NCBI GenBank assembly: GCA_023544645.1
Contig: JAMJFO010000011.1
Span: forward strand, 1 to 64,000
From: Desulfobulbaceae bacterium
GTDB taxonomy: Bacteria > Desulfobacterota > Desulfobulbia > Desulfobulbales > Desulfobulbaceae
Direction of reading: 5' to 3'
Length of the DNA: 64,000 nucleotides
A program made the position numbers and the translations under genes. The first letter of the stretch is position 1. Every line of letters starts with the position of its first letter. The notes beneath the pieces were generated by a model that made no database searches, was not told where the DNA came from, and was given only the letters and a program-made list of their open reading frames with translations. Positions 11,239-25,428 of the stretch are shown piece after piece.

Positions 11239-12627
11239 TTAATCTGAATGCACCCGCGCATTGAAACGGATACCGTATTTCTTGATCCATTTCCAGACAG
11301 TCACCCTGCTGACACCGAGAATCCGGGCAGCCTCGGTCTGGTTGCCGCCGCTTTGCTCTAGGGCTTCAATCAGCTTGTGCCGGCGTGTTTTTCTGACATC
11401 ACCATGCGGCTGTGGCGGGAAACTTGTTGACAATGACATTTCATGGCGCAGATGAGAGGGAAGATGCGACACCTGAATCTGGCCGCCGGGACAAAGAACA
11501 AAAGCATATTCAATGGTGTTGATCAGCTCCCTGATATTGCCGGGCCATGAATACTGCATGAGCAGATCAAGGGAAGTCCTGCTGATGCCGCTGATGGGCT
11601 TTGCCGTTTTTTCACCGATCTTTTTGATGAAGGTGTCAACCAGCTGGGGGATGTCGGAAACCCGTTCGCGGAGAGGCGGCAGGTAGATGGGGATAACGCC
11701 GATCCTGTAGTACAGGTCCTCCCGGAATGCTCCCTGGGCGATGAGCTGCTGTAAATCCTTATGGGTTGCGGCAATGATCCTGACATCGATTTTAACAGGA
11801 CGATGATCACCAACCCGCTCTATCTCTTTCTCCTGGAGAACCCGCAGCAGTTTGGTCTGTGTAGCCAGCGGCAGATCACCTATCTCGTCCAGAAATATGC
11901 TGCCGCCGGAAGCTGCCTCAAAGCGGCCGACACGGGTATAATCGGCCCCGGTAAAAGCGCCCTTGACATGACCGAACAGTTCACTTTCCAGGAGGTTGTC
12001 ATTGAGGGCGGCGCAGTTAACCTTGATAAAGGATTCCTCGCAGCGAGGACTGGCCATGTGGATGGCACTTGCGATTACCTCCTTGCCGGTGCCGGATTCT
12101 CCGTAAATGACCAGCGGGGCATCCGACTGCGCCGCGCTGGACGCAAGGTCAAGCACCTGGCGCATTACCTGTGTATTCCCGACAATTCCCTGAAACCCGT
12201 CATGATAGTTCAGCTGCTGCCGAAGATTGGCAATGATCTTTTCTTTTTCCTGGATTCTGCTGAGATCGACCATTGTTTCCACACCGCCGACAACATTGCC
12301 GTTTTTATCATGGATCAGCGCCGCGTTTTTCAATAGATGCAGGGACTGGCCATCCTTTTTCCGAAAAGTACATTCACTGCTCTTGACCTTTTTTTCCTCG
12401 AACAGGGCACAATATTTGTCCAGGCCCCCCGCACGGGCTGTAAAACAACGGTCGCACTGAAACACCTCGCAGCTGCTGCCGACAAGTTCTTCATTGACGT
12501 AGCCGACCATCTCTTCAAAAGCCTTGTTCACAAAAACAATACGCCCATTTTGATCAACAAGCATGAGTCCTTCCTGCATGGTATCAACCACGGTTTTCCA
12601 GAACTCACTGTCATATGTATCAAACAC
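11239..12627 (-). CDS. Sigma-54-dependent activator with Cys-rich PAS sensor and Fis-type HTH
   Basis: Enhancer-binding transcription activator of 462 residues. Residues 1-125 form a PAS domain with an unusual Cys group (CEVFQCDRC, then single Cys residues about 13 and 13 positions later), which could hold an Fe-S cluster, heme or redox switch. The AAA+ domain has Walker A GESGTGKE, the sigma-54 contact loop GAFTGA and [11 protein letters not shown] Fis-type helix-turn-helix ends the protein ([20 protein letters not shown]). The start is GTG at 12627, preceded by GGAGG. It diverges from the octaheme cytochrome gene, whose upstream DNA carries repeated palindromes and a -24/-12 promoter, so it very probably controls that gene. 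Confidence 0.93.
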
Positions 12628-12667
12628 TTCTTTACCTCCGCCAGGAAAATTCCAATCAGTAATTCAC

Positions 12668-12777
12668 GTTAACACGTTAACACATAATTAACCAACTGCA
12701 AACAATAATCTGTTAACAGGAGTCATCCTCGGGGAGTGAGCTCAGGAACAAAAAATACAAAAAAACAGATGGTTAAC
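12668..12777. promoter_or_regulatory. Cluster of GTTAAC palindromes, likely activator-binding sites
   Basis: GTTAAC occurs at 12668-12673, 12676-12681, 12712-12717 and 12772-12777, with a near match ATTAAC at 12687-12692. Two are part of longer palindromes, CTGTTAACAG and GGTTAACC. The three leftmost sites are 112-136 bases upstream of the sigma-54 promoter, a normal distance for enhancer sites, and the adjacent gene encodes a Fis-type HTH activator. Binding by that activator is inferred. Confidence 0.65.
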
Positions 12778-12803
12778 CATAATAATCCCGAACGCTCCCT
12801 GTA

Positions 12804-12819
12804 TGGCACAAACATTGCT
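12804..12819 (+). promoter_or_regulatory. Sigma-54 (-24/-12) promoter of the octaheme cytochrome gene
   Basis: TGGCAC at 12804-12809, a 5-base spacer, then TTGCT at 12815-12819 matches the TGGCAC-N5-TTGCW consensus exactly. It lies 82 bases before the cytochrome ATG, with the activator gene divergent and its likely sites upstream. Confidence 0.88.
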
Positions 12820-12900
12820 GAATGCATGTCCAAATACTCTTTCATTTGAGTATCATAGAAAAATTCAGGGGACCATCGAGATCCCGGGAGGATGTAAAGA

Positions 12901-14325
12901 ATGAAAAAAGCTGCACTCATCTCAGCACTTTGCGCGGGAACGCTTCTTTACGGAGCAGGCGCTCACGCAAACGAAGACCACATGGCCATCAAGGGTCCGT
13001 TCGCCGACCCCATGGCTGTCACCGATAAATGTCTTGAATGCCATGAAAATGCCGCTCATGACGTCATGCAGACCAGCCACTGGACCTGGGATCTGGAACA
13101 GGATATTTCCGGCCGGGAAAATGTTTATCGGGGCAAAAAAAATGCCATTAACAACTTCTGTATATCAATCAACGCCAACTGGCCCAGGTGCACCAGCTGC
13201 CATATCGGCTACGGCTGGAAGGACGGCGACTTCGACTTCAGTGATTCTTCCAGGGTAGATTGCCTGGTGTGTCATGACACCACTGGCACGTATAAAAAAC
13301 CGGGACCGGCTGCCGGCATGCCCGCCGGTTATACCGGTAATGAACAATTTGACCAGAAACCTGTCGACCTGGTGAAGGTTGCACAGAATGCCGGCGCCCC
13401 GAACCGCAGCAACTGCGTTTCCTGTCACGGCTACGGCGGCGGCGGCAACAATGTTAAACATGGCGATATCGATTCTTCCATGGTCGCTCCAACAGCGACA
13501 CATGACGTCCATATGGGGGCAGACGGGCAGGACTTCTCCTGTCAGACCTGCCATACCACTGCAGACCACGATATTAAGGGCAATGCCATGGTCGTTTCCC
13601 CGGGCGGTGAAAACCATATCGCCTGTACGGATTGCCATGATCAGAATCCTCACTCCGAGGCACTGCTAAACAATCACATGGATACCGTTGCCTGTCAGAC
13701 TTGCCATATTCCTGAATTTGCCAAGGAAATTCCGACAAAACTCTCCTGGGACTGGTCAACCGCCGGACAGGATAAAGTCGAGGCGGAAACCGATAAGTAC
13801 GGCAAGTCCGTCTATGACAAGAAGAAGGGCAATTTTGTCTGGGGCAAGAATGTAGTCCCGACCTATGCATGGTACAATGGCAAAGGCGGCGCGTATCTCC
13901 CCGGAGACAAGATCGACCCCGACAAGGTAACCAGACTGAGCTGGCCTGAAGGCGATCGGAGCGACATGACGGCGAAAATATTCCCGTTCAAGGTGCATAC
14001 GGCCAAACAGCCTTACGACACGAAGCACGGCTACCTGATCACCCCGAAGGTCTTCGGCAAAAAGGGTGATCCCGATGCATACTGGATCAACTATGACTGG
14101 AAAAAGGCCTCAGCGGCGGGGATGAAGGCCACCGGCCTGGAATTCAGCGGCGAATACGATTTTGCCCCCACCGAAATGTACTGGCGGATAAACCATATGG
14201 TTGTTCCGGCAGACGCGGCCCTGGGCTGCCTGGACTGTCATGGCGACAATGGCCGCCTGGACTGGAAAGCGCTGGGCTACGCTGCTGATCCGATGCGCGA
14301 CAGCAGCGTTTCACGCACCAAATAA
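12901..14325 (+). CDS. Octaheme c-type cytochrome, tetrathionate reductase (OTR) family
   Basis: Periplasmic multiheme cytochrome of 474 residues with a signal peptide cleaved near AHA-NE (residue ~23). Exactly eight CXXCH heme sites are present, starting near residues 44, 97, 121, 172, 214, 242, 265 and 443; the large gap before the last one is typical of OTR-type proteins. Characterised family members reduce tetrathionate, nitrite or hydroxylamine in vitro, and the physiological substrate is uncertain. It is monocistronic, with its own sigma-54 promoter and a strong terminator. Regulation by the divergent Cys-rich PAS activator suggests induction by a sulfur or nitrogen oxide or by redox state. 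Confidence 0.93.
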   Translation: MKKAALISALCAGTLLYGAGAHANEDHMAIKGPFADPMAVTDKCLECHENAAHDVMQTSHWTWDLEQDISGRENVYRGKKNAINNFCISINANWPRCTSCHIGYGWKDGDFDFSDSSRVDCLVCHDTTGTYKKPGPAAGMPAGYTGNEQFDQKPVDLVKVAQNAGAPNRSNCVSCHGYGGGGNNVKHGDIDSSMVAPTATHDVHMGADGQDFSCQTCHTTADHDIKGNAMVVSPGGENHIACTDCHDQNPHSEALLNNHMDTVACQTCHIPEFAKEIPTKLSWDWSTAGQDKVEAETDKYGKSVYDKKKGNFVWGKNVVPTYAWYNGKGGAYLPGDKIDPDKVTRLSWPEGDRSDMTAKIFPFKVHTAKQPYDTKHGYLITPKVFGKKGDPDAYWINYDWKKASAAGMKATGLEFSGEYDFAPTEMYWRINHMVVPADAALGCLDCHGDNGRLDWKALGYAADPMRDSSVSRTK

Positions 14326-14344: not shown

Positions 14345-14393
14345 ACAACCCCGATATCCGCACGCGGAAAACGCGTGCGGATATCGGGGTTGT
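14345..14393 (+). terminator. Strong intrinsic terminator after the octaheme cytochrome
   Basis: A perfect 22-bp stem (14345-14366 with 14372-14393) closes on a GAAAA loop, about 20 bases after the cytochrome stop; a T-rich stretch (cttacgttttt) follows. The stem lacks mismatches and has no immediate T-run on the minus strand. Confidence 0.85.
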
Positions 14394-14531: not shown

Positions 14532-15128
14532 CTAGAACGTAAACCCCACCAGTATCTTACTGGAATTGAGCGGATCGTTGGGATCCTCGGTTCCGGCATT
14601 GGAAATATGGTGAAAACGGTATTCCACTTTGAGCCCGTTGCCCGACTGCAGCCGGTAACGCACCCCGCCCCCGAACTGCCAGTTTCCGTTCACCTCTGAA
14701 CCCAGACCGGGAATATCTGCGTTTGTATAGAGAATACCTCCACCGCCGAAGACGTACGGCTGCATGGTTTCGGAAGAGTCAAATGTCCAGGCCCCCAGTA
14801 CATTAACCCCGACCATGGGACTGACGTCAGGGTCAATGACAAGGGTCAGCGGCAACTCCAGCAGCAGGGAATGATACCCCTTGTACCAGGAGCTTCCCAC
14901 ATCCCGGAAAAGGATGCGGTTATACTGCGGAATAAGATCCAGGACCTGGACCTTCTCCCTGGTTTTCCCCAGTCCCTGGTGGGAGATCCCGTATCCGCCG
15001 AGAAGGGCCCAGGAGCTGTCCGGCGCCGCGGAAGCTTCCTGGTCGGCCTCCCCGGCACGGATGGCCGGGGGAAGAAGCATGGCCATGGATACAATGAGCA
15101 AACAAATTCTTCGCACAAATACAAGCAT
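14532..15128 (-). CDS. PagL-like lipid A 3-O-deacylase / acyloxyacyl hydrolase family outer-membrane protein
   Basis: Outer-membrane beta-barrel of 198 residues with a signal peptide (cleavage near IRA-GE, residue ~25), alternating hydrophobic strands and a C-terminal Phe (LVGFTF). Near the end it carries the PagL active-site pattern: YRFHHISNAG, giving the His-Ser pair, followed by an Asn a few residues later. PagL removes the 3-linked acyl chain from lipid A. It is convergent to the cytochrome terminator and lies just after the minus arm of the lipid cluster, so it may be the last gene of that arm or an unrelated neighbour. Confidence 0.75.
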   Translation of the reverse strand: MLVFVRRICLLIVSMAMLLPPAIRAGEADQEASAAPDSSWALLGGYGISHQGLGKTREKVQVLDLIPQYNRILFRDVGSSWYKGYHSLLLELPLTLVIDPDVSPMVGVNVLGAWTFDSSETMQPYVFGGGGILYTNADIPGLGSEVNGNWQFGGGVRYRLQSGNGLKVEYRFHHISNAGTEDPNDPLNSSKILVGFTF

Positions 15129-15160: not shown

Positions 15161-16633
15161 TCATACACCCCGGCGATACGCTTTGCCGGTGCCGGTTTTT
15201 TCTATCTGTTCAACAAAATATATCTGCTGCGGGATCTTAAAAGGTGAAAGCCGGGCCCGGGCGAAACCGATCAGTTCTTCAGGGGATATTCTGACCCCTT
15301 CAGCCAGCACTACGCGGGCATGCACTGTTTCACCCATGCGCGGATGACTTGCGCCATAGACAAATGATTCCACAACCTGATGATGTTCATTAAGTACGGT
15401 TTCAACCTCTTCGGGAAAAACCTTTTCACCGCAGACATTGATCATTGATTTCTTGCGTCCGCAGACGGTCACAGTGCCGTCAGCCTCCAGGCTGGCCATG
15501 TCCCCGGTCATGAACCATCCCTTGCGCAGCACTTCTTCCCTTCTTCTGAACGGATCAAGGTAGGCAGAGAACATCCCCGGGCCCCGCACAGCCAGATGTC
15601 CTACTGTTCCAGGTTTCAGCCAGGATCCGTCATCATCCAGTATCCCCACTTCGTAATCAGGGAGGGCGCGTCCGATGGCATGGGCATTATGGATATTGCC
15701 GTCCAGATTGATGATCGGCAGCCCAACCTCGATGATTCCGTACGCCTGGGTGATTTTTCGGCCGAATGCGGTGTAAAATTTTTGCGCAATATCCGGAGAC
15801 AAGCCGGTTGACGTTGAAACAGCCATTGTGAGAGTTTCCAGATCCTTCCCCGGCGGACGGGCTGCGAGAAGCATGCGGTAATGGAAGGGCGAGGCATAGA
15901 GAAAGGTCACCCGGTGGCGGCTGATCATTTCCCCCAGGGCGGCGGCGGTATGGTCTCCGGCAATAACTATTGCCGCGCCCGCGTGGAGATAAAGAATGAT
16001 CGAAACATAAAAGTGATACGCCATGGGCAGGACGAACAGCACCGAATCATCCTCGTTAAGGCATAGCCCGCGGTTTGCCGCCAGGATCCGTTCATAAACA
16101 CCCCGGTGCGAAAGAACAACTCCTTTTTCGGCGCCGGTGGTGCCCGAGGTATAGCGAACAAACGCCGCATCAGGCACGCGGTCGACAATTCTCCGGTCCC
16201 GGGACAATCCGGTCTCGTACAAATGAAAGACCTGACCGCCGTTAATCGCCACCTCTTTGCCCCGGGTTGCAGAATCCCGGCTGCACTCCCTGTCGGTGAT
16301 GAGGACATGAACCGGGGTGCGGTCGAGAATCATTTTGCTCTCCGCCGGCACCAGGCTATGGGCAATGGGCATGACCGTGGCTCCACATCTGACAGCGGCG
16401 AAAACAGCAATGATAAACCCCCGTCCATTGCGGCTCTGGACCCCCACGCCATCGCCTTTGCGCAGACCATGCCCGGCCAGAACATCGGCCGTCTTTTCCG
16501 TTTCCTTGAGCAGAGTGCGGTAATCAAGGGTGCCGTGTTCATCGACAATGGCGGGACGATCCGGCCATTTCTCCGCGGAATGAACCAGAACGGAAAAAAT
16601 TGAGAAACTGTCGCTATCCATTATTTTCTTCAT
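15161..16633 (-). CDS. AMP-dependent acyl-CoA/ACP synthetase (adenylate-forming ligase)
   Basis: Class I adenylate-forming enzyme of 490 residues. The P-loop-like A3 motif YTSGTTGAEKG lies near residue 182, the adenine-site region QAYGIIEVGLP near 320, TGDMASLEADG near 395, and the C-terminal lysine region KTGTGKAYRR at the end. It activates a carboxylic acid as acyl-AMP and transfers it to CoA or a carrier protein. Its ATG overlaps the stop of the preceding flavoprotein gene (ATGA), so it belongs to the minus arm of the biosynthetic cluster. A role in loading a starter or recycling a released acid is inferred; the substrate is unknown. Confidence 0.88.
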   Translation of the reverse strand: MKKIMDSDSFSIFSVLVHSAEKWPDRPAIVDEHGTLDYRTLLKETEKTADVLAGHGLRKGDGVGVQSRNGRGFIIAVFAAVRCGATVMPIAHSLVPAESKMILDRTPVHVLITDRECSRDSATRGKEVAINGGQVFHLYETGLSRDRRIVDRVPDAAFVRYTSGTTGAEKGVVLSHRGVYERILAANRGLCLNEDDSVLFVLPMAYHFYVSIILYLHAGAAIVIAGDHTAAALGEMISRHRVTFLYASPFHYRMLLAARPPGKDLETLTMAVSTSTGLSPDIAQKFYTAFGRKITQAYGIIEVGLPIINLDGNIHNAHAIGRALPDYEVGILDDDGSWLKPGTVGHLAVRGPGMFSAYLDPFRRREEVLRKGWFMTGDMASLEADGTVTVCGRKKSMINVCGEKVFPEEVETVLNEHHQVVESFVYGASHPRMGETVHARVVLAEGVRISPEELIGFARARLSPFKIPQQIYFVEQIEKTGTGKAYRRGV

Positions 16634-17871
16634 CCCTTTTGCTGCTGCTCCTGCAGGTAAGCGACTGCTTCCTTCCGGGACCTTCCCTGTGCCTGGAAGG
16701 AGGCAAGAACACCGGCGGCATATCCGGTTCCCAGGGCCGTTCCTATCACCCGGGCCGAGCCCATGGCCATTTCTTCAGCACCAATGCATCTTCCACCCAT
16801 GAATACATTATCAAGGCCGGCGGCAACCAGGCAGCCGGCAGGGATATCATAATAATCACCTTGGGCAAGATAGGTGAGTTCGGGCCGGCGGCCACCGCTC
16901 CAGACCTCGACCGGCCAGCAACCTCGCGCAACACCGTCCACAGCCTTGGCGCACTGCAGAACGTGATCAAGGGTAAGGGTATTCACTCCCCCGGCCATAC
17001 GCCCGACCCTGACCCCGGCCTGCACCGCGGTCTCGGGGCTCACCGAACTCGGAACATACGATTGCGAGACCAGAAAGGCCATGACCTCTTCGATGATCCT
17101 GCGGCCATGAATTTCCATATCGGTCATGGAAAATGCGCCGGCACCGTCATGGGGAATCGGCACGGTCAACAGGCTGCTGCGGCCCCCGGCATGACCGGGA
17201 AAAAATGAGATATTCCGGCAATCATCATGAATAACCCCTTGTTCGGCAGCATGAACAATTTTCCGCATGAGTGCCAGGCGCTCTGCCCGGGTGCCGGCAA
17301 TCAGTCCGTTCACCCGAAAAAGCACTGCCCCATCCTGCAAGGTTCCCTGAACGGTTTCCCCGCCGGCAGAATCAACAAGGCTCGCCTCTCCCGTGCAGTC
17401 AACAACACATGTCGGACGGATCGTCAGCGCCGAATTCCAGTAACGACACTCGACTTCCGCCACGGACCGCCCTTCTTTCTTAACCGACAACAGGTGAGTA
17501 TGCAAAAAGGGACGGATGGAATCATTGCTGATAAATTCATCTGCCAGGCGGACAAGGTGCCATGGCCGGTACGGCAGTATGAACAGGCCATTGGGCAGGG
17601 CCAGCGGTTCGGCCTGCTGCCTGGCGGCAAGTTTTTTCGTAAACTCGGCCACAAAACCACCCGCGGCAGGCAGAGCCCTTCCTTCAGGGTTACGCAGATA
17701 AAGCCCGCAAACCGAGGAGACCATGCCGGCGGTTGCCATGCCGCCCATGAAGCCATACTTTTCCAGCAGAACGACTGTTGCCCCGGTTCGTGATGCACCC
17801 ACAGCTGCAGCCATCCCGGCGACACCGCCGCCGACAACCAGGACATCACACTGTTGTCTGCTTTGCTCCAT
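16630..17871 (-). CDS. FAD-dependent oxidoreductase (FAD_oxidored-type)
   Basis: Flavoprotein of 413 residues with an N-terminal Rossmann dinucleotide motif GGGVAGMAAA (residues 14-23) and the following acidic strand end VVLLEKYGFMGG. The GGMATAGMVS stretch and the C-terminal GGRCIGAEEMAMGSARVIGT are typical of the FAD-dependent oxidoreductase family related to fumarate reductase and tRNA-modifying flavoproteins. It could oxidise or reduce C-C bonds of an acyl chain. It is coupled to the ligase gene by an ATGA overlap and lies 70 bases after the radical SAM gene. It is not closely like the CrtI-type enzyme of the plus arm, so the cluster has two distinct flavoproteins. Confidence 0.82.
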   Translation of the reverse strand: MEQSRQQCDVLVVGGGVAGMAAAVGASRTGATVVLLEKYGFMGGMATAGMVSSVCGLYLRNPEGRALPAAGGFVAEFTKKLAARQQAEPLALPNGLFILPYRPWHLVRLADEFISNDSIRPFLHTHLLSVKKEGRSVAEVECRYWNSALTIRPTCVVDCTGEASLVDSAGGETVQGTLQDGAVLFRVNGLIAGTRAERLALMRKIVHAAEQGVIHDDCRNISFFPGHAGGRSSLLTVPIPHDGAGAFSMTDMEIHGRRIIEEVMAFLVSQSYVPSSVSPETAVQAGVRVGRMAGGVNTLTLDHVLQCAKAVDGVARGCWPVEVWSGGRRPELTYLAQGDYYDIPAGCLVAAGLDNVFMGGRCIGAEEMAMGSARVIGTALGTGYAAGVLASFQAQGRSRKEAVAYLQEQQQKG

Positions 17872-17941
17872 GCTGATATTCCGTTCAATATCCTTAATCA
17901 GAAAACTCCTGTCAGGGAAGCAGGCACAAACGCCGGGTCGC

Positions 17942-19339
17942 TCACGGTTTCCGCATATGCCTGCCGTAATTACTGATATTCTTCCACTGCGGCCGCTGCC
18001 CGGACAGGTTGACTATCTGCTGTATCCCGCGAAGCAGCGGTTTATTCCAGTCTACCGGGCTGGACCACTCCGGCCGCCTTCTGACAATGCCATCCAGGTT
18101 TGCCACCGGGTCGATCCCGAGTTTTCCGGAAACATAATAGGTGGGCAGAAAAAAATCAGTCTGCTCGCTGATCACCTTCTCCTGCAGGGCTGTTGCCGCC
18201 AGGGATGTATTTTCATAGATACGGATGCCGATGGACGCAAAAACCGCATGGGCGGTCGGACAGGTGTTGAGGAATTCCTGGGCCGCGACGATATCATCCG
18301 TCCCTTCTCCCGGTCCCCCGAACAGGAGATGGACGGCAAAAGGAATGGATGCCTGCCTGGCCGCAGTCATACTCCGGAATATCTCCGCCTGGGTAAAAGG
18401 CTTGCCCATGGCGGCCAGCATCCGGTCCGTAGCCGCATCCAGACCGAACTCAACACCGATACAGCCGGAGCGCGCCATCATTTCAGCCAGCTCCCTGTCA
18501 AAACCCACCGGGTTGCAATAGGCCATCCATTGTACCGGCAGTTTCCTGCGGACGATCTCTTCACACACCTGCAGGGCATGCTCCCTGGGCGAATTGAATA
18601 CACTGTCGGTGAAAAAGAAATGGCGGGCCTTCGAGTCTTTCAGCACCTGGTTGATCTCATCAGCGAGAATCTGCGGGGATCGCAGGCGGTACCGCTTTCC
18701 TTCCAGTTGTGAATAGACGCAGTAAATGCAGTCAAAGGGGCAGCCCCGTTTTGACTGCAGCCCGACAAAACCGCCCTTGCGTATGTACTGCGCGTAGTTG
18801 CACAGAGCATGGGCCGGCGAAGACAGGCCGTCAAGGTCGGCGGCATGTTTCAATGGTTCAGCTTTGCGGTCCGAACCCCTGCAGACAACCCCCGGCAACA
18901 TGCCGGGATCATCTCCTGCTTCAATTTTGGCCAGCAAGGCGGGAAATGCCGTATCACCCTCACCGACGACGCCGAACTGGGCATCAAGGGCATCCAGCCA
19001 TTTTTCCGGGGCCAAGGAAAACCCGCTTCCCCCCAGCACCAGAGGAATCAAACTATTCTCCCTGATAACCTCGGCAAAGGTGCGGATTTCATCGATGTAG
19101 CTCCTGGGGGAGCAGTAGGCGCAGTTGTCCAGGTTGCGAATGCTGAGGGCAGCCAGGTCATACCCCTTGCCGGCCAGCCGCTTTTTCAGACTGGCCTTGG
19201 GAAACACCTTGAAGGTCAGGTCAAGGAAATCAACATGATGTCCTGCCCGCCGGGCCGCCGAAGCAACGAACAGCGCACCGATGGGAGCCACCGGAAAAGG
19301 CGAGACTTCACGATTTGGATTGACAAGGAGGATGCGCAT
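17942..19339 (-). CDS. B12-binding-type radical SAM protein (cluster paralogue A)
   Basis: Class B-type radical SAM protein of 465 residues. Residues 1-150 form an N-terminal cobalamin-binding-like Rossmann domain (VNPNR start, GGSGFSLAPEKW, VVGEGDTAF), and the radical SAM core carries the CxxxCxxC iron-sulfur site at C200, C204, C207 (CPFDCIYC). Such enzymes perform methylations, cyclisations or rearrangements on unactivated carbons. It is clearly paralogous to the protein at 30794-32134: both share SIRNLD, VGEGE/D, KRGCP and FFTDSVFN. Its start shares one base with the stop of the condensation-like gene. Substrate unknown; the context suggests an ACP-bound or lipid acyl chain. Confidence 0.88.
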   Translation of the reverse strand: MRILLVNPNREVSPFPVAPIGALFVASAARRAGHHVDFLDLTFKVFPKASLKKRLAGKGYDLAALSIRNLDNCAYCSPRSYIDEIRTFAEVIRENSLIPLVLGGSGFSLAPEKWLDALDAQFGVVGEGDTAFPALLAKIEAGDDPGMLPGVVCRGSDRKAEPLKHAADLDGLSSPAHALCNYAQYIRKGGFVGLQSKRGCPFDCIYCVYSQLEGKRYRLRSPQILADEINQVLKDSKARHFFFTDSVFNSPREHALQVCEEIVRRKLPVQWMAYCNPVGFDRELAEMMARSGCIGVEFGLDAATDRMLAAMGKPFTQAEIFRSMTAARQASIPFAVHLLFGGPGEGTDDIVAAQEFLNTCPTAHAVFASIGIRIYENTSLAATALQEKVISEQTDFFLPTYYVSGKLGIDPVANLDGIVRRRPEWSSPVDWNKPLLRGIQQIVNLSGQRPQWKNISNYGRHMRKP

Positions 19340-20673
19340 CAGCCATTTTCCGGCAGCAGGTCTTTACGCAGCTGCTCTTCGAACAGCTTGAGATCATCCT
19401 CGGCGAGCAGCGAATTCCGGAAGGAGAGGATCGCTTTCAGGCGGTTGCGGTGGCGCATGAAAACCACTGAAAGCCCTGGAATACTGGTCGCCGGCGCCAG
19501 ATGGGTGACTTGTCTGACCAGCTGCCCCATGAAATTGTCCATGCCGGGACAACACTCTCCGGTATAGGAAAAAAAGAAACTGGCAAGCCGTCCCCCTGTC
19601 GGCCCTGACAGCAGCCTGGAATAAAGCGGGAGCGGCAGACGGCGGAGGATCTTCATCATTTCAGCATACGAATGAGGGATTTCCTGCATGACCTGGTTTC
19701 GCATCTGGTCTTTCAGGGAAACAACCATGGTCCTGAAGTCCTGGATTTCCTCCGGGGCGATCCGGTAAAAAAGAAAGGATACGTTATTGGAAAATGCCGG
19801 CCCGCTGCCCCCTTTCCTCCGGAGATTCAGGGGCACCGGAATCAGGTAAGGCGCATCGCCTTCTTTTTTTCGCAGCCTGACCGCATGCACCGCCCTTGCG
19901 GCCGCTGCCAGATAAAAAAGGCTGTGATAGTAGCTTAAGCCAATGGTTTCGCATTGCGAAACAATCCGTTCGGTCTCTTCCTCACTGAAGGAAATGGTAC
20001 AATACTGATCGGCGCATTCCCGGTTGTTGCCGTTTGGCTTCAGTATTGCAATGGGCATGGCCGATGCGTCGGCAATATAGCGGACCGACTTTCTCGCATA
20101 GGATAACCGTTCACCAAATCCTTGTGACCGCTGAACCCGGCCTCCGACACTCACCTGGTTTGACGGCAGCAGCCCCTCCAGGATTTCCTGCTTCTCCGGC
20201 GCCCGGGCAACGTGACGCATCAGAATTTCAGCGCCATGGGCGTCCATCAGGGTATGGTCCCAGTTCAGAATACAGGTGGACCGGTGATCATCATGGTTGG
20301 CAAGGGCAAAGGAAAGGGGTGAATGGATTCCGTCCTGCTCCGGAGGCCCGTGAAAGGAAAAATATGTCTCCCTGTTTCCTGAACAATGTTTCGCAACCCG
20401 GTCACAGGTGACGGGAACCGCGTTCCCTGTCCCGTTGCTCCTCCAGCGCGGGAGCGCAAAAGGAAATCTGCTGGTTTTTTGCACATTGACCATCCACTGC
20501 AAAACCTGTGAACAATTGATCGTATGGCGAAATTCTTCCGGATCGATGCAGCCTTCTAGTTCGACCACCAGGCGGCATAAACTGCCGGACCGGCCTGCCC
20601 TGCGCAAAATCCGGTCCATGGCGAAAAGAAAATAGTCAGAACCGCTGAGCTCAACCTCCGGCAGCATCTTCAT
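19339..20673 (-). CDS. Condensation-domain / WS-DGAT-like acyltransferase
   Basis: Protein of 444 residues with the HxxxD acyltransferase centre in NWDHTLMDAHGAEI (near residue 160), preceded by long beta strands. A DFGWG-like element of condensation domains is not obvious. The fold is predicted to be that of NRPS condensation domains or wax-ester/diacylglycerol acyltransferases, which join an acyl group to an alcohol or amine. The ATG at 20673 is chosen because it forms an ATGA overlap with the ACP stop; a GTG at 20694 would extend it by seven residues. The adjacent ACP is the obvious acyl donor. It may attach the finished chain to a head group. Confidence 0.7.
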   Translation of the reverse strand: MKMLPEVELSGSDYFLFAMDRILRRAGRSGSLCRLVVELEGCIDPEEFRHTINCSQVLQWMVNVQKTSRFPFALPRWRSNGTGNAVPVTCDRVAKHCSGNRETYFSFHGPPEQDGIHSPLSFALANHDDHRSTCILNWDHTLMDAHGAEILMRHVARAPEKQEILEGLLPSNQVSVGGRVQRSQGFGERLSYARKSVRYIADASAMPIAILKPNGNNRECADQYCTISFSEEETERIVSQCETIGLSYYHSLFYLAAAARAVHAVRLRKKEGDAPYLIPVPLNLRRKGGSGPAFSNNVSFLFYRIAPEEIQDFRTMVVSLKDQMRNQVMQEIPHSYAEMMKILRRLPLPLYSRLLSGPTGGRLASFFFSYTGECCPGMDNFMGQLVRQVTHLAPATSIPGLSVVFMRHRNRLKAILSFRNSLLAEDDLKLFEEQLRKDLLPENG

Positions 20674-20939
20674 GAACCCGGGGAGGGAGCACACGCGGTA
20701 ATTGCCAGCTGCCTGACCGAGGCAATATTATCCGGAGTCAGTCGCTGGTCATCGATATAAATATCGAAATTACGTTCAAGATAAAGGAGGATTTCCAGGA
20801 GCGAGACAGAATCTATCCCAACCTTGTCAAATGGCGTATCCGGTGAGAAATCCGCATTATCCGCGAGAATCGTAGATCGGATAAAGCACAGAAGGTCCCG
20901 GACCAGATCATCAGCAGTAACTTCATGCGGTTCTTTCAT
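20670..20939 (-). CDS. Acyl carrier protein 1
   Basis: Small acidic carrier protein of 89 residues with a phosphopantetheine site GIDSVSLLEILLYLE; the Ser is the attachment residue, and the usual DSL is DSV here. The ATG at 20939 is preferred over a much longer upstream reading because the extra 62 residues (Trp-, Cys- and Tyr-rich) look nothing like an ACP. It is the first gene of the minus arm, diverging from the first ketosynthase, and its stop overlaps the condensation-like gene. Confidence 0.85.
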   Translation of the reverse strand: MKEPHEVTADDLVRDLLCFIRSTILADNADFSPDTPFDKVGIDSVSLLEILLYLERNFDIYIDDQRLTPDNIASVRQLAITACAPSPGS

Positions 20940-21173
20940 GCCTACGGTAGTTGCCCTCCATAAATACCAAAACGAAGCATACAGCAGCCAGACAGCCGGT
21001 TCATCGGGATCGGTGACGGTAAAACCGACGCAGGAACATGTTATAATCATGAATCGTTTTTGACAAGAGTTTAAAACTTCTTGGTAAACCTGCCGGGAAT
21101 AATGTATGCATAAGTATGTGCGCAATGAAGTTGCAATTTATTTTCATACCAGCGTTTACGGCTGTCCCTGATC
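20940..21173. promoter_or_regulatory. Divergent regulatory region of the two-armed biosynthetic cluster
   Basis: The 234 bases separate the first gene of the minus arm from the first of the plus arm. A TTGTCA / TATAAC pair with about 15 bases between them could serve the minus arm (near 21045-21070), and a TTGACA near 21058 could serve the plus arm. Both are weak guesses. No clear operator or sigma-54 site is seen. Confidence 0.35.
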
Positions 21174-22406
21174 ATGCCCGGTCGTGAACGTGTTGTCATA
21201 ACCGGCCTGGGTATTATATCCTGCCTCGGCAACGACTGTGCCCGGGCGGCCGCGTCCCTGTTTGAAGGCCGCAGCGGGGTCGAGCTTCTCGAGGAACGGA
21301 AAAAGCTCGGTTTCAACAGCGGCCTCAGCGGGGTTATAAGGGATTTTGATCTTGATCTATACCTCACCCGCAAACAACGCAAAACCCTGCCCGAGTTCGG
21401 CATCTGGGCCTGGGCGGCTATTGAACAGGCCCTCGGCCAGGCCGGCATCGGAATTGAATCTCTTTCCGGGGATGAGCAAACCGGCCTTATTTTCGGCAAC
21501 GATTCATCCGCGGCCACCCCTGTTGAACAGGTGGACATTCTCCGGTCATCCGGGGAGACCAGATCCATCGGCAGCGGCCATATCTTTCGCTCCCTGACCT
21601 CGACCATCACCCTCAATATCTCCACCCTGCTCGGCATCAGAGGCATGTCCTGGACAGTGGCTTCCGCCTGTGCCAGCGGCGCCATGGCCATCGGGCAGGG
21701 AGCTGAACTGATCGCCGGCGGCAGGCAGAAAAGGATGATCTGCGGCGGCGCCCAGGAGATCACCTGGGAATCCATGTGCAGCTTTGACACCCTTAACGCG
21801 TTTTCACGCCGCGAAAATGCCCCGGCCGAAGCGTCCCGGCCATTTGACACGGAGCGCGACGGTCTGGTTCCCAGCGGCGGAGCCGCCTGTCTTGTCCTGG
21901 AATCACTGAACGAAGCGAAAGGGCGCGGCGCGACGGTATTGGGGGAGGTCGCGGGGTACGGCATATCGACTGACGGCCACCATATCGTTGTGCCCAGCGG
22001 CGAAGGCATTGAACGATCCATGAACATGGCCATCAGCAGCTCGGGCCTGCAGTCCGGAGATATCGATCTTGTCCTGGCCCATGCCACCTCCACACCTGCC
22101 GGCGACGAGAAAGAGGCGGAAGCGCTCACCAGAGTCTTCTCGGCAAATGACGCGCACCCGTATATTTTTGCCCCCAAGGCGTTGACCGGCCATGAATTCT
22201 GGATGGCCGGAGCATCACAGGCGGTTTACGGCCTGCTGATGGCCCGCAATGGTTTTATTGCCGGGAACCGGAACCTGCGCACTCCTGATCCCGCCGCCTC
22301 CAGCCTGAATCTCCCGCGCACCAATGTCCGGGTCTCGCCGAGGATACTGCTGTGCAATGCTTCCGGTTTCGGCGGCACCAACGCATCGCTGGTTCTCCGT
22401 ACATAG
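21174..22406 (+). CDS. 3-oxoacyl-ACP synthase (ketosynthase 1, FabB/FabF-like)
   Basis: Decarboxylating ketosynthase of 410 residues that would extend an ACP-bound chain by two carbons. The full catalytic set is present: Cys166 in SACASG, His303 in AHATSTPAGD and His340 in LTGHEFWMAGA. The second motif departs from the usual HGTxT (HATST) and the third from GHxLGAAG, so this is a divergent member, possibly of specialised substrate range. It opens the plus arm; the CrtI-like gene follows after 21 bases. No strong ribosome site precedes the chosen ATG. Confidence 0.88.
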   Translation: MPGRERVVITGLGIISCLGNDCARAAASLFEGRSGVELLEERKKLGFNSGLSGVIRDFDLDLYLTRKQRKTLPEFGIWAWAAIEQALGQAGIGIESLSGDEQTGLIFGNDSSAATPVEQVDILRSSGETRSIGSGHIFRSLTSTITLNISTLLGIRGMSWTVASACASGAMAIGQGAELIAGGRQKRMICGGAQEITWESMCSFDTLNAFSRRENAPAEASRPFDTERDGLVPSGGAACLVLESLNEAKGRGATVLGEVAGYGISTDGHHIVVPSGEGIERSMNMAISSSGLQSGDIDLVLAHATSTPAGDEKEAEALTRVFSANDAHPYIFAPKALTGHEFWMAGASQAVYGLLMARNGFIAGNRNLRTPDPAASSLNLPRTNVRVSPRILLCNASGFGGTNASLVLRT

Positions 22407-22427
22407 CAACGTCGAGCGAAAAAATTT

Positions 22428-23921
22428 ATGACCCGGACAATTATAATCGGCAGTGGTATAAGCGGACTGACCGCAGCCCTTCTCCTGCACCGGCAGGGGC
22501 ACGATGTCCTGGTGGTTGAGCAGCAGGCTCAGGCAGGCGGTGCCCTGCACCGGTTCCGGCGGCAGGGTGTTCCCTTTGATGTAGGATTCCATTACACCGG
22601 GGGCCTGGGTGAAGGAGAGATCCTGCGGACACTGTGGCGTTACTGCGGCATCGAATCCGCGATACGGACTATTGCCTTTCCGAAACACGCCGCCGACTGC
22701 ATTCGGGTAGAGGATTTCCCGGATCCGGTGCATGCCTATTTTTCCTACGACAGATTTACCGAAGAACTGAATCGCCTCTTTCCCCGGGAAAAAGATGGAA
22801 TAGCCAGGTTCTTCCGGGCGATCAGGGAAACCAGCGACCGCAATCCCTTCTACAACATGTCCCAACCCCTGACCGGCTTTCTCCGGGACCTGGCTTTTCC
22901 CGAACAGGCTACCCTGGGCAATTTTCTCCGGTCCTGCACTTCAAACGTTTATCTTCAGGCAGCGCTGTCACACCCGGTATTTCTCCATGGCGTCAAACCG
23001 GACGATGTCGGGCTGGCAATGCATACTTCCGTTGCTCACCCTCTCTATTCAGGGATGTACACCGTTGACCGCGGCGGCCAAGCAATTGCGGATGCATATC
23101 TCCACAAGCTGAAAGATTCCGGAATCGACGTGCTCACCGGCACACCGGTTGACAGTATCCTGACCGATAACGGCAAAATAACCGGCATCGCGACCCCCGG
23201 TGGAACATATGCCGCCACCAATGTCATCTTTACCGGCCACCCGGCGCAGCTTCCCGACCTGATAGCTGCCAATGCCCTGAGAAAGGTATATATCAGCCGA
23301 TTGCGGGAAATGACCAGCACCTGTTCCATGTTCATGGTTTTCGGCACAGTTGTTAACCACGCACCCGGCCTGAAGTGGAACAACTACTATGCCATGCCGA
23401 AAGGGCTGTGCATGCCCGGTACTGAATCGAACAGGCCGGAAGACTGCTTCTTTCTCAGCGGCTGCGGGCTCAGGGATAGGGATGCCGACGACCGGCAAGG
23501 CATGCCGCGGGCAGTCATTCTCATGCGCCCCGCTCACTGGGAAGAGACACTGACTTTTGATCTGGGCAGAAAAAAAAGAACATCCGCATATCGGGCATGG
23601 AAAGAGGAGGAAAGCCGCAGACTGATAGCTTCCGTCAACAGGAAATGGGATGGACTATTGGACGGTTTTCAGGTAATAAATACTGCTTCACCGCTTACCT
23701 TTCGCGATGAACTGAGATATGTTAACGGATCTGTTTACGGAGTACAGCACAACACTGATCAATTCGCGGTAGGAGCCAGAACAAGACTGCCGGGACTGTG
23801 GCTGAGCGGCCAATCAACGCTTATGACCGGAATTCTGGGCGCTTCCCTGTCAGCCCTGATCACTGTCGGGAACATGGTTGGCCTGGAATCATTATGGAAA
23901 GAAGTTCGGGACTGTACATGA
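22428..23921 (+). CDS. CrtI/phytoene-desaturase-like FAD-dependent oxidoreductase
   Basis: Flavoprotein of 497 residues. The N-terminal GxGxxG (IIGSGISGLTAALLL, residues 6-20) and the VVEQQAQAGGAL strand are typical of the CrtI/RetSat family; the C-terminal SGQSTLMTGILGASLSALI region matches the second FAD signature. Family members desaturate, isomerise or saturate conjugated isoprenoid or retinoid chains. There is no carotenoid synthesis gene in the window (no phytoene or GGPP synthase), so an acyl chain is a more likely substrate. It overlaps the next ketosynthase gene by ATGA. Similar desaturases have been proposed for ladderane synthesis in anammox bacteria. Confidence 0.85.
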   Translation: MTRTIIIGSGISGLTAALLLHRQGHDVLVVEQQAQAGGALHRFRRQGVPFDVGFHYTGGLGEGEILRTLWRYCGIESAIRTIAFPKHAADCIRVEDFPDPVHAYFSYDRFTEELNRLFPREKDGIARFFRAIRETSDRNPFYNMSQPLTGFLRDLAFPEQATLGNFLRSCTSNVYLQAALSHPVFLHGVKPDDVGLAMHTSVAHPLYSGMYTVDRGGQAIADAYLHKLKDSGIDVLTGTPVDSILTDNGKITGIATPGGTYAATNVIFTGHPAQLPDLIAANALRKVYISRLREMTSTCSMFMVFGTVVNHAPGLKWNNYYAMPKGLCMPGTESNRPEDCFFLSGCGLRDRDADDRQGMPRAVILMRPAHWEETLTFDLGRKKRTSAYRAWKEEESRRLIASVNRKWDGLLDGFQVINTASPLTFRDELRYVNGSVYGVQHNTDQFAVGARTRLPGLWLSGQSTLMTGILGASLSALITVGNMVGLESLWKEVRDCT

Positions 23922-25147
23922 ACCGGGTCGTCATAACAGGCAGAGGCGCTGTTTCCCCTTACGGTGTCGGGGTTGCGACACTTGTCGACAACTGCTGGCA
24001 CGGCAGATCAGCCGTCCGCTGCATGGATGAATGGCGGTCCATCAAAGGCCTGGCAAGTTTTCTGGCCGCACCGGTGCCACGCCTTGACCCCAAAAAATAC
24101 CTGCCCCGGTCAGCGCGCCGGACAATGGGCGACATGGCGATTCACGCGACCATCGCCGCCCGCGAGGCTCTTGCTGACGCAGGAATTACAGAAGAACAGC
24201 TTCATTCCGGAGAGATCGGCATTGCCATCGGCACCACCACCGGCAGCCCGGTGGAGTACAATAACTTCTATGCCGAATTCCTCTCCCACCAGAGCATCGA
24301 ATCCATGAAATCAGGCATGTTTTTCAAGATCATGGGGCACAGCTGCGCCGCCAATGTGATGTATGCCCTGGGGATAAGCGGTGAACAGTGGGCGCCGACC
24401 AGCGCCTGCACCTCTTCCAGCCAGGCCATGAGCCTGGGATATCTGCTGGTCAAGTCCGGCCGTCAGCGGGCAGTTATTTGCGGAGGCGCCGACGAGGTCC
24501 ACCACAGCGTTACCATGGTTTTTGATATCATCAGGGCAGCGTCACAGGATAATGACCACCCGCAACAGACCCCAAGACCATTTGACAAAAACAGAGATGG
24601 TGTGGTATGTGGGGGAGGTGCAGGAATACTGGTGATTGAAAGCCTTGATTCAGCCCTGGCAAGGGGCGCCGAAATTTATGGCGAAATCACCGGATTCGGT
24701 CATGCCAGCGATCCGGGACACATAGCCAACCCGAGTAAGACCGCAATGGCCGGCGTCATGAAAAAAGCGTTGCAGGAAGCTGAACTCCGGCCGGACGAGA
24801 TAGATTATGTCAACGCCCATGCCACCGGAACCGAACAGGGCGACCTGGCAGAAGCCCAGGCCATTGGAACCATAGTTGCTCCTGCTGTTCCGGTCAGTTC
24901 GCTGAAAGGACACATGGGGCATACCCTTGGCGCCTCGGGCGCGCTGGAAAGTATACTGGTCCTTGAAATGATGCAACGGGGGGAAATCCTGCCGACTCTC
25001 CATCTCAACGAGGTTGATCCCGGCTGCCGAGCAATAAATCTCATTAAAGATTTGACCCCCTGCCCCGTCAATACGGTTATAAAAAATAATTTTGCCCTGG
25101 GCGGAGTAAATGTAGCTCTGGTGTTTCAAAAATGGAGTAAATCATGA
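23918..25147 (+). CDS. 3-oxoacyl-ACP synthase (ketosynthase 2, FabF-like)
   Basis: Ketosynthase of 409 residues with a complete set: Cys164 (TSACTSSSQA), His301 (AHATGTEQGD) and His335 (KGHMGHTLGASG). Closest in style to FabF. The ATG at 23918 overlaps the CrtI-like stop (ATGA) and starts directly with the family N-terminus NRVVITGRG; a longer reading from 23798 would lie inside the upstream gene. The stop overlaps the start of ACP 2, so the ketosynthase and its likely carrier are co-translated. Confidence 0.93.
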   Translation: MNRVVITGRGAVSPYGVGVATLVDNCWHGRSAVRCMDEWRSIKGLASFLAAPVPRLDPKKYLPRSARRTMGDMAIHATIAAREALADAGITEEQLHSGEIGIAIGTTTGSPVEYNNFYAEFLSHQSIESMKSGMFFKIMGHSCAANVMYALGISGEQWAPTSACTSSSQAMSLGYLLVKSGRQRAVICGGADEVHHSVTMVFDIIRAASQDNDHPQQTPRPFDKNRDGVVCGGGAGILVIESLDSALARGAEIYGEITGFGHASDPGHIANPSKTAMAGVMKKALQEAELRPDEIDYVNAHATGTEQGDLAEAQAIGTIVAPAVPVSSLKGHMGHTLGASGALESILVLEMMQRGEILPTLHLNEVDPGCRAINLIKDLTPCPVNTVIKNNFALGGVNVALVFQKWSKS

Positions 25148-25428
25148 CCATGACCGACGATGATATTTTTCAACGCCTCAAATTGATTTTTATTGAGGAA
25201 TTTGAGCTTGAGCCGGAGCAGCTCATTCCCGAGGCAACCCTTTTTGATGACCTGGGACTTGACAGCCTCGATGCGGTGGACATGGTTGTTGCCCTGGAAA
25301 AAGAATTCGGTGTCAAGGTGAAGGACGAGGAATCCATTCGATCTGTCAGGACCCTGGATGATCTTCACCAATTACTGCTTGCTATTCATGCGCAAATGAC
25401 CGACCGTGATAAAGAAACTGCTGCTTAA
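25144..25428 (+). CDS. Acyl carrier protein 2
   Basis: ACP of 94 residues with the standard site LGLDSLDAVDMVV, Ser being the phosphopantetheine attachment point. Acidic and helical, normal length. It overlaps the upstream ketosynthase stop by four bases (ATGA) and the downstream PlsC-like gene by 23 bases. It is probably the carrier for ketosynthase 2. Confidence 0.95.
   Translation: MTMTDDDIFQRLKLIFIEEFELEPEQLIPEATLFDDLGLDSLDAVDMVVALEKEFGVKVKDEESIRSVRTLDDLHQLLLAIHAQMTDRDKETAA

Follow-up and report, generated by a model that had tools for sequence, protein, structure and literature searches.

What is an octaheme cytochrome of the OTR family for in a member of the Desulfobulbaceae, and which signal calls for it? 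Reduction of nitrite, of hydroxylamine and of tetrathionate are all candidate physiological roles for OTR, and a dedicated regulator with relatives in sulfur relay makes the question testable via its inducer. Such a regulator appears to lie beside an otr gene in the window, by which we mean the whole 64,000-nucleotide stretch analysed here. The first-pass annotation had described a sigma-54 control unit in which a divergent activator faces an octaheme cytochrome; this unit is real, and its domains, promoter and GTTAAC sites could all be located in the sequence. The region that it covered, 12628-14325, runs through the cytochrome gene and the DNA between the two genes; the activator gene lies outside it, at 11239-12627.

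A one-component sigma-54 activator faces a single-gene OTR unit

The activator, encoded on the reverse strand (11239..12627), is a one-component sigma-54 activator (bEBP) with the Pfam domains PAS_9, Sigma54_activat, AAA_lid_14 and HTH_8. Its gene starts with a GTG at 12627 and has a GGAGG ribosome site. The AAA+ domain has Walker A and B motifs (Walker A at residue 176) and a GAFTGA loop at residue 223, and the protein ends in a Fis-type HTH whose HTH_8 match, with the recognition helix, covers residues 418-451 (11275..11376, reverse strand). The PAS sensor domain occupies residues 1-141 (12205..12627, reverse strand) and takes a PAS fold in an AlphaFold model of mean pLDDT 83, with 58-59 in the Cys loop as the least confident part. 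As had been noticed earlier, this domain contains five Cys, at positions 53, 58, 61, 73 and 86; by residue numbering, their codons span 12370..12471 on the reverse strand (C86 to C53). The modelled fold is nearest to LOV/NifL PAS domains, and C53 falls at the position of the LOV adduct Cys. A LOV photoreceptor was rejected as a candidate: the flavin-adduct motif GXNCRFLQ is absent, the activator reading GSSCEVFQ and the family consensus being GxSCxILxC. Identity with PrdR (392.7 bits, cut-off 795), NifA (377 bits, cut-off 529) or NorR (313 bits, cut-off 476) was also rejected, each score being below the NCBIfam cut-off.

The gene on the other side of the intergenic region (12901..14325, forward strand) encodes an OTR-family octaheme cytochrome c with a signal-peptide-like N-terminal sequence and, by count, eight CXXCH haem-binding motifs. 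The protein scores 603.2 bits against TIGR04315 (curated cut-off 375) and aligns with Shewanella OTR 1SP3 over its length (E 1.3e-176). In this alignment Lys186 (codon 13456..13458, forward strand), within YGGGGxxVKHGD, is equivalent to K153 of 1SP3, the distal ligand of the active-site heme in that protein. Because a strong terminator hairpin (14346..14392, forward strand; 20 pairs by scan, -46.5 kcal/mol, z -9.1) ends the gene, otr forms a one-gene unit. A convergent gene for a PagL-type lipid A 3-O-deacylase (14532-15128) comes directly after the terminator. Farther along the window, 15161-25428 holds an acyl-CoA ligase, FAD oxidoreductases, two ketosynthase-like genes, acyl carrier proteins and an acyltransferase, a set that resembles a fatty-acid/aryl-polyene-type biosynthesis cluster. 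Another octaheme cytochrome of the OTR family, with 38% identity, is encoded in the same genome (L044, G000:C153, 6611-8086); its gene is directly 3' of an ftsH-looking gene, and the same order is found in a second genome (G002, L045).

Four GTTAAC sites precede a predicted sigma-54 promoter

A motif scan of the 273-base intergenic region located four GTTAAC sites between 12668 and 12777, all 5' of a perfect -24/-12 element, in agreement with the clustering that had been reported. The first, a candidate enhancer site by virtue of the motif enrichment in the activator family, lies at 12668..12673, and the second, 8 bp from it, at 12676..12681. The third (12712..12717) is part of the perfect palindrome CTGTTAACAG, and the fourth (12772..12777), 26 bases 5' of the -24 box, is part of the perfect palindrome TGGTTAACCA. 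The promoter, TGGCACAAACATTGCT (12804..12819, forward strand), matches the -24/-12 consensus exactly, is conserved at the orthologous place and is the sole exact match in the 64-kb window. Its spacing to the cytochrome ATG at 12901 is 81 bases, one fewer than the 82 given in the earlier annotation, whose description of the element itself stands.

We compared these features with dinucleotide shuffles of the intergenic region. Not one of 20,000 shuffles reached four GTTAAC (mean 0.06, maximum 2), and an exact TGGCA[CT]-N5-TTGC[AT] arose in only 3 of the 20,000. Together with the family-wide enrichment and the recognition-helix association described below, the shuffles rule out that the GTTAAC sites are a chance product of AT-rich DNA. 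We also rejected a sigma-70 promoter as the start of otr transcription, the region containing just two 9/12 matches, which is below the shuffle level. RpoN is encoded in the genome (PF04552, E 8e-62).

The activator and otr are conserved as a pair

Related genomes and GTDB contigs served as sources of OTR relatives. The divergent activator-otr pair was found in seven distinct genomes, the L035 and L099 loci being one contig. Flanking genes vary among the seven loci, and both genes and their intergenic layout are kept. All seven OTR-linked activators retain the five Cys, and a -24/-12 element is directed at otr at every one of these loci. An exact -24/-12 element accompanied by GTTAAC lies 5' of otr in six of the seven loci with an adjacent activator, as against none of the 51 without; the seventh pair locus has GTTAAC and a degenerate -24 (TGGGTTAAAAATTGCT). 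This conservation across seven genomes gives strong support, at the level of comparative sequence, to the signal-to-gene pair that had been proposed. A tree did not resolve a single clade for the OTR-linked activators.

Two further observations concern OTR loci that depart from this layout. An exact -24/-12 element stands about 113-134 bases 5' of otr, with neither GTTAAC nor an adjacent bEBP, at six of the 51 loci (L050, L051, L052, L053, L059 and L094); a different activator, encoded elsewhere, must therefore act there. The sister genome G050 (L141, G050:C59) keeps the activator in the same purF/SIS flank as G037 (L036), but only a short remnant of otr is left (contig 25014-25124), which corresponds to OTR residues 431-467; here the target has been lost naturally.

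Could the main target of the activator lie elsewhere, the GTTAAC cluster being mainly autoregulatory and otr constitutive or under another bEBP? Further GTTAAC plus -24/-12 promoters do occur in the genome, and the six loci just described have an exact -24/-12 element with neither GTTAAC nor an adjacent bEBP. However, the pair is kept while its flanks change, and the promoter points at otr in 7/7 loci, so that we judge this reading very improbable.

The activator belongs to a Cys-PAS family associated with GTTAAC

A profile built from the PAS domains of the seven OTR-linked activators detected relatives in 72 of 395 genomes, an even sample across the phylum, with up to five per genome. C53, C61, C73 and C86 are invariant in 49/49 family sequences; at position 58, 41 sequences have Cys and the other 8 have Ser. 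Since the same Cys are conserved across the 49 sequences, the pattern is a trait of the family and is not specific to OTR. The idea of the Cys-PAS activator as a sensor for OTR consequently holds as regards its pairing with otr, but its membership of a large paralogous family deprives it of any exclusive link to this cytochrome. We found no description of the family in the open-access literature.

All 6-mers in the 49 family upstream regions were counted, without preselection of a motif. GTTAAC ranked first among the repeated 6-mers, at least two copies being present in 21 of the 49 regions where 0.2 were expected; TGTTAA came next (32 regions, 2.0 expected). GTTAAC preceded 31/49 family genes and none of 40 control bEBPs, a comparison that is imperfectly matched because most of the controls, taken from genomes mostly also carrying family members, are two-component regulators co-directional with their neighbour. 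In a better-matched contrast, within the family, the motif tracked the recognition helix: it accompanied 24 of 30 helices reading ...SRVTxWK and 2 of 14 with WN, WS, WH or Y (Fisher p = 5e-5, a value that takes no account of relatedness, the family counts including related sequences that are not independent). The DNA-reading residues of the activator are thereby tied to GTTAAC. These results support GTTAAC as the predicted operator of the activator, and the support extends well beyond the otr locus.

As a genome-wide regulon finder, GTTAAC pairs alone performed no better than a reversed control (8 vs 10). The composite GTTAAC-N75..136-TGGCAY-N5-TTGC gave repeated matches in the seven pair genomes and none in the reversed control of any of the seven. 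Two GTTAAC and a -24/-12 element also precede a gene for a Tll0287-like haem-sensor/PAS protein (L227 / L046, G000:C118:9758-9895), which adjoins an NtrC-type response regulator and may be a further regulon member or part of an independent system.

Gene neighbourhoods point to reactive sulfur

The signal had earlier been left open among redox, sulfur and nitrogen oxides. We examined by Pfam the promoter-side neighbours of 42 family members (114 proteins) and found TusA 20 times, FlpD 13, FeoA 8 and TauE 6; HdrA-like FAD/4Fe-4S proteins were also present, as were DsrE, rhodanese and CoA-disulfide-reductase-like proteins in individual cases. Among the neighbours of the 40 control bEBPs (112 proteins), HisKA histidine kinases were found 25 times and TusA, FlpD and TauE at most twice each. 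Opposite two further activator relatives with 51-53% identity (L104 and L105, with two and five GTTAAC sites, respectively) lie genes for a DUF3373 protein and a YeeE/YedE sulfur transporter, the latter followed by a small cytochrome c. A second GTTAAC/-24/-12 promoter in one of the pair genomes (G010) precedes two genes for rhodaneses, and genes of this rhodanese type adjoin family members at other loci. One Cys-PAS sub-clade (L161, L162, L166 and L174) adjoins feoA/feoB iron-uptake genes and not sulfur-relay genes. Because relatives of the activator mostly adjoin sulfur-handling genes, the switch probably answers reactive sulfur and not nitrogen oxides, although reasoning from neighbours to a signal is indirect.

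The same evidence bears on a sensor for nitrite, NO or hydroxylamine, in which case OTR would be an enzyme of nitrosative detoxification or of nitrite ammonification. Shewanella OTR reduces nitrite and hydroxylamine, and published OTR activity also extends to tetrathionate (PMC4484225); Desulfurivibrio dismutans growing on nitrate strongly induces a different octaheme cytochrome (PMC12142623). Against this, none of the 25 protein families counted most often beside the activator family relates to nitrogen oxides. Full-length NrfA is, moreover, encoded by 6/7 genomes with the activator-otr pair, so that nitrite ammonification needs no OTR here; a role for OTR as the sole nitrite reductase of the genome is ruled out, NrfA being present. 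We therefore regard a nitrogen-oxide signal as improbable, and of the signals originally listed it is sulfur that the family context favours. In a sulfur disproportionator, OTR has been proposed to act as a tetrathionate reductase (PMC4911364).

The main alternative to a reactive-sulfur signal is a sensor of redox state or oxygen, since the four invariant Cys are equally compatible with metal binding. The Cys group would then bind a cofactor ([4Fe-4S] or Zn), and the sulfur neighbours would reflect anaerobic metabolism and not the ligand. That exactly four Cys are invariant is what a four-ligand site would need, and the spacing C58-x2-C61-x11-C73 is like that of NreB. On the other hand, the fifth Cys, C58, is itself kept in most of the family, the last two spacings are long, and the neighbours are specifically sulfur-relay genes rather than general anaerobic or oxygen-stress genes. 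We consider such a metal-based sensor unlikely.

A proposed sulfur-responsive switch

On balance, the comparative evidence favours a FisR-like one-component switch, GTTAAC-binding and sigma-54-dependent, in which a Cys-PAS domain would respond to sulfane sulfur/polysulfide or to polythionate and bring about the synthesis of OTR; we hold this to be the probable function of the locus. The activator would bind the clustered GTTAAC, about 26-135 bases 5' of the otr -24 box, and its Cys-rich PAS domain would detect reactive sulfur species, most likely those just named. A persulfide or disulfide formed on the Cys loop may release the AAA+ domain onto RNA polymerase-sigma-54. The otr promoter would then be opened by the sigma-54 polymerase, and the synthesis of periplasmic OTR would be confined to conditions in which the sulfur species occurs. 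The cytochrome could in turn dispose of an oxidised sulfur compound (e.g. tetrathionate) or take it as an electron acceptor.

A broader reading, to which we give close to even credence, is that the whole phylum-wide family (C53-x7-C61-x11-C73-x12-C86, with GTTAAC) governs a general reactive-sulfur regulon of the Desulfobacterota. Its targets would include TusA/HdrA/FlpD relays, sulfur transporters and rhodaneses; the octaheme OTR would be a further target in certain Desulfobulbales-related lineages. If this is true, OTR gains a sulfur function in these organisms. GTTAAC combined with -24/-12 would also be a signature by which sulfate reducers, sulfur disproportionators and relatives of cable bacteria can be searched for a sulfur-responsive regulon; for these groups, the transcriptional control of the sulfur relay is little covered in the open-access papers examined.

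Comparison with known systems

NreB of Staphylococcus is a PAS sensor carrying a [4Fe-4S] cluster. Like the activator, it has a PAS domain with several Cys, in a spacing that is only partly alike; NreB, however, is a histidine kinase and not a bEBP. In sulfate reducers and sulfur disproportionators, the YTD and TusA-HdrA-FlpD sulfur-relay clusters consist of the same genes that adjoin relatives of the activator. The open-access papers examined on these clusters describe the enzymes, and name neither a Cys-PAS bEBP nor a GTTAAC operator for them. The Shewanella oneidensis OTR (PDB 1SP3) belongs to the same protein family as the cytochrome in the window, with eight hemes and a conserved active-site Lys. 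The OTR locus of Shewanella gelidii (L068) differs in having no activator, GTTAAC or consensus -24/-12 site.

The characterised regulatory precedent is FisR of Cupriavidus and Acinetobacter, which is encoded divergently from sqr-pdo-tauE, activates these genes with sigma-54 and has sulfide/persulfide as its signal (PMC7315123). Both are one-component bEBPs divergent from a sigma-54 target and associated with sulfur genes, including tauE (PMC7315123); the divergent arrangement is present at our locus and the sulfur-gene context in the activator family. In Cupriavidus FisR the Cys are in the regulatory domain and here they are in the PAS domain, a comparison made by description only. The target nevertheless differs, being an octaheme OTR, as does the host, an anaerobic member of the Desulfobacterota, and the locus has no sqr-pdo.

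A bEBP that faces an octaheme cytochrome is an arrangement of a known kind, since in Desulfovibrio vulgaris the one-component bEBP DVU3142 has been predicted to lie divergently, facing the sigma-54 promoter of the octaheme cytochrome operon ohcBAC (PMC4641369). The two loci are likened by arrangement only. The Desulfovibrio operon includes Fe-S and b-type membrane subunits, whereas otr is a single gene, with no ohcB or ohcC membrane subunit beside it and its terminator followed by the convergent pagL-type gene. What sets the present locus apart from DVU3142-ohcBAC is thus that its target is of the OTR type and forms a unit of one gene, and that its activator comes from the Cys-PAS family, with a putative GTTAAC operator.
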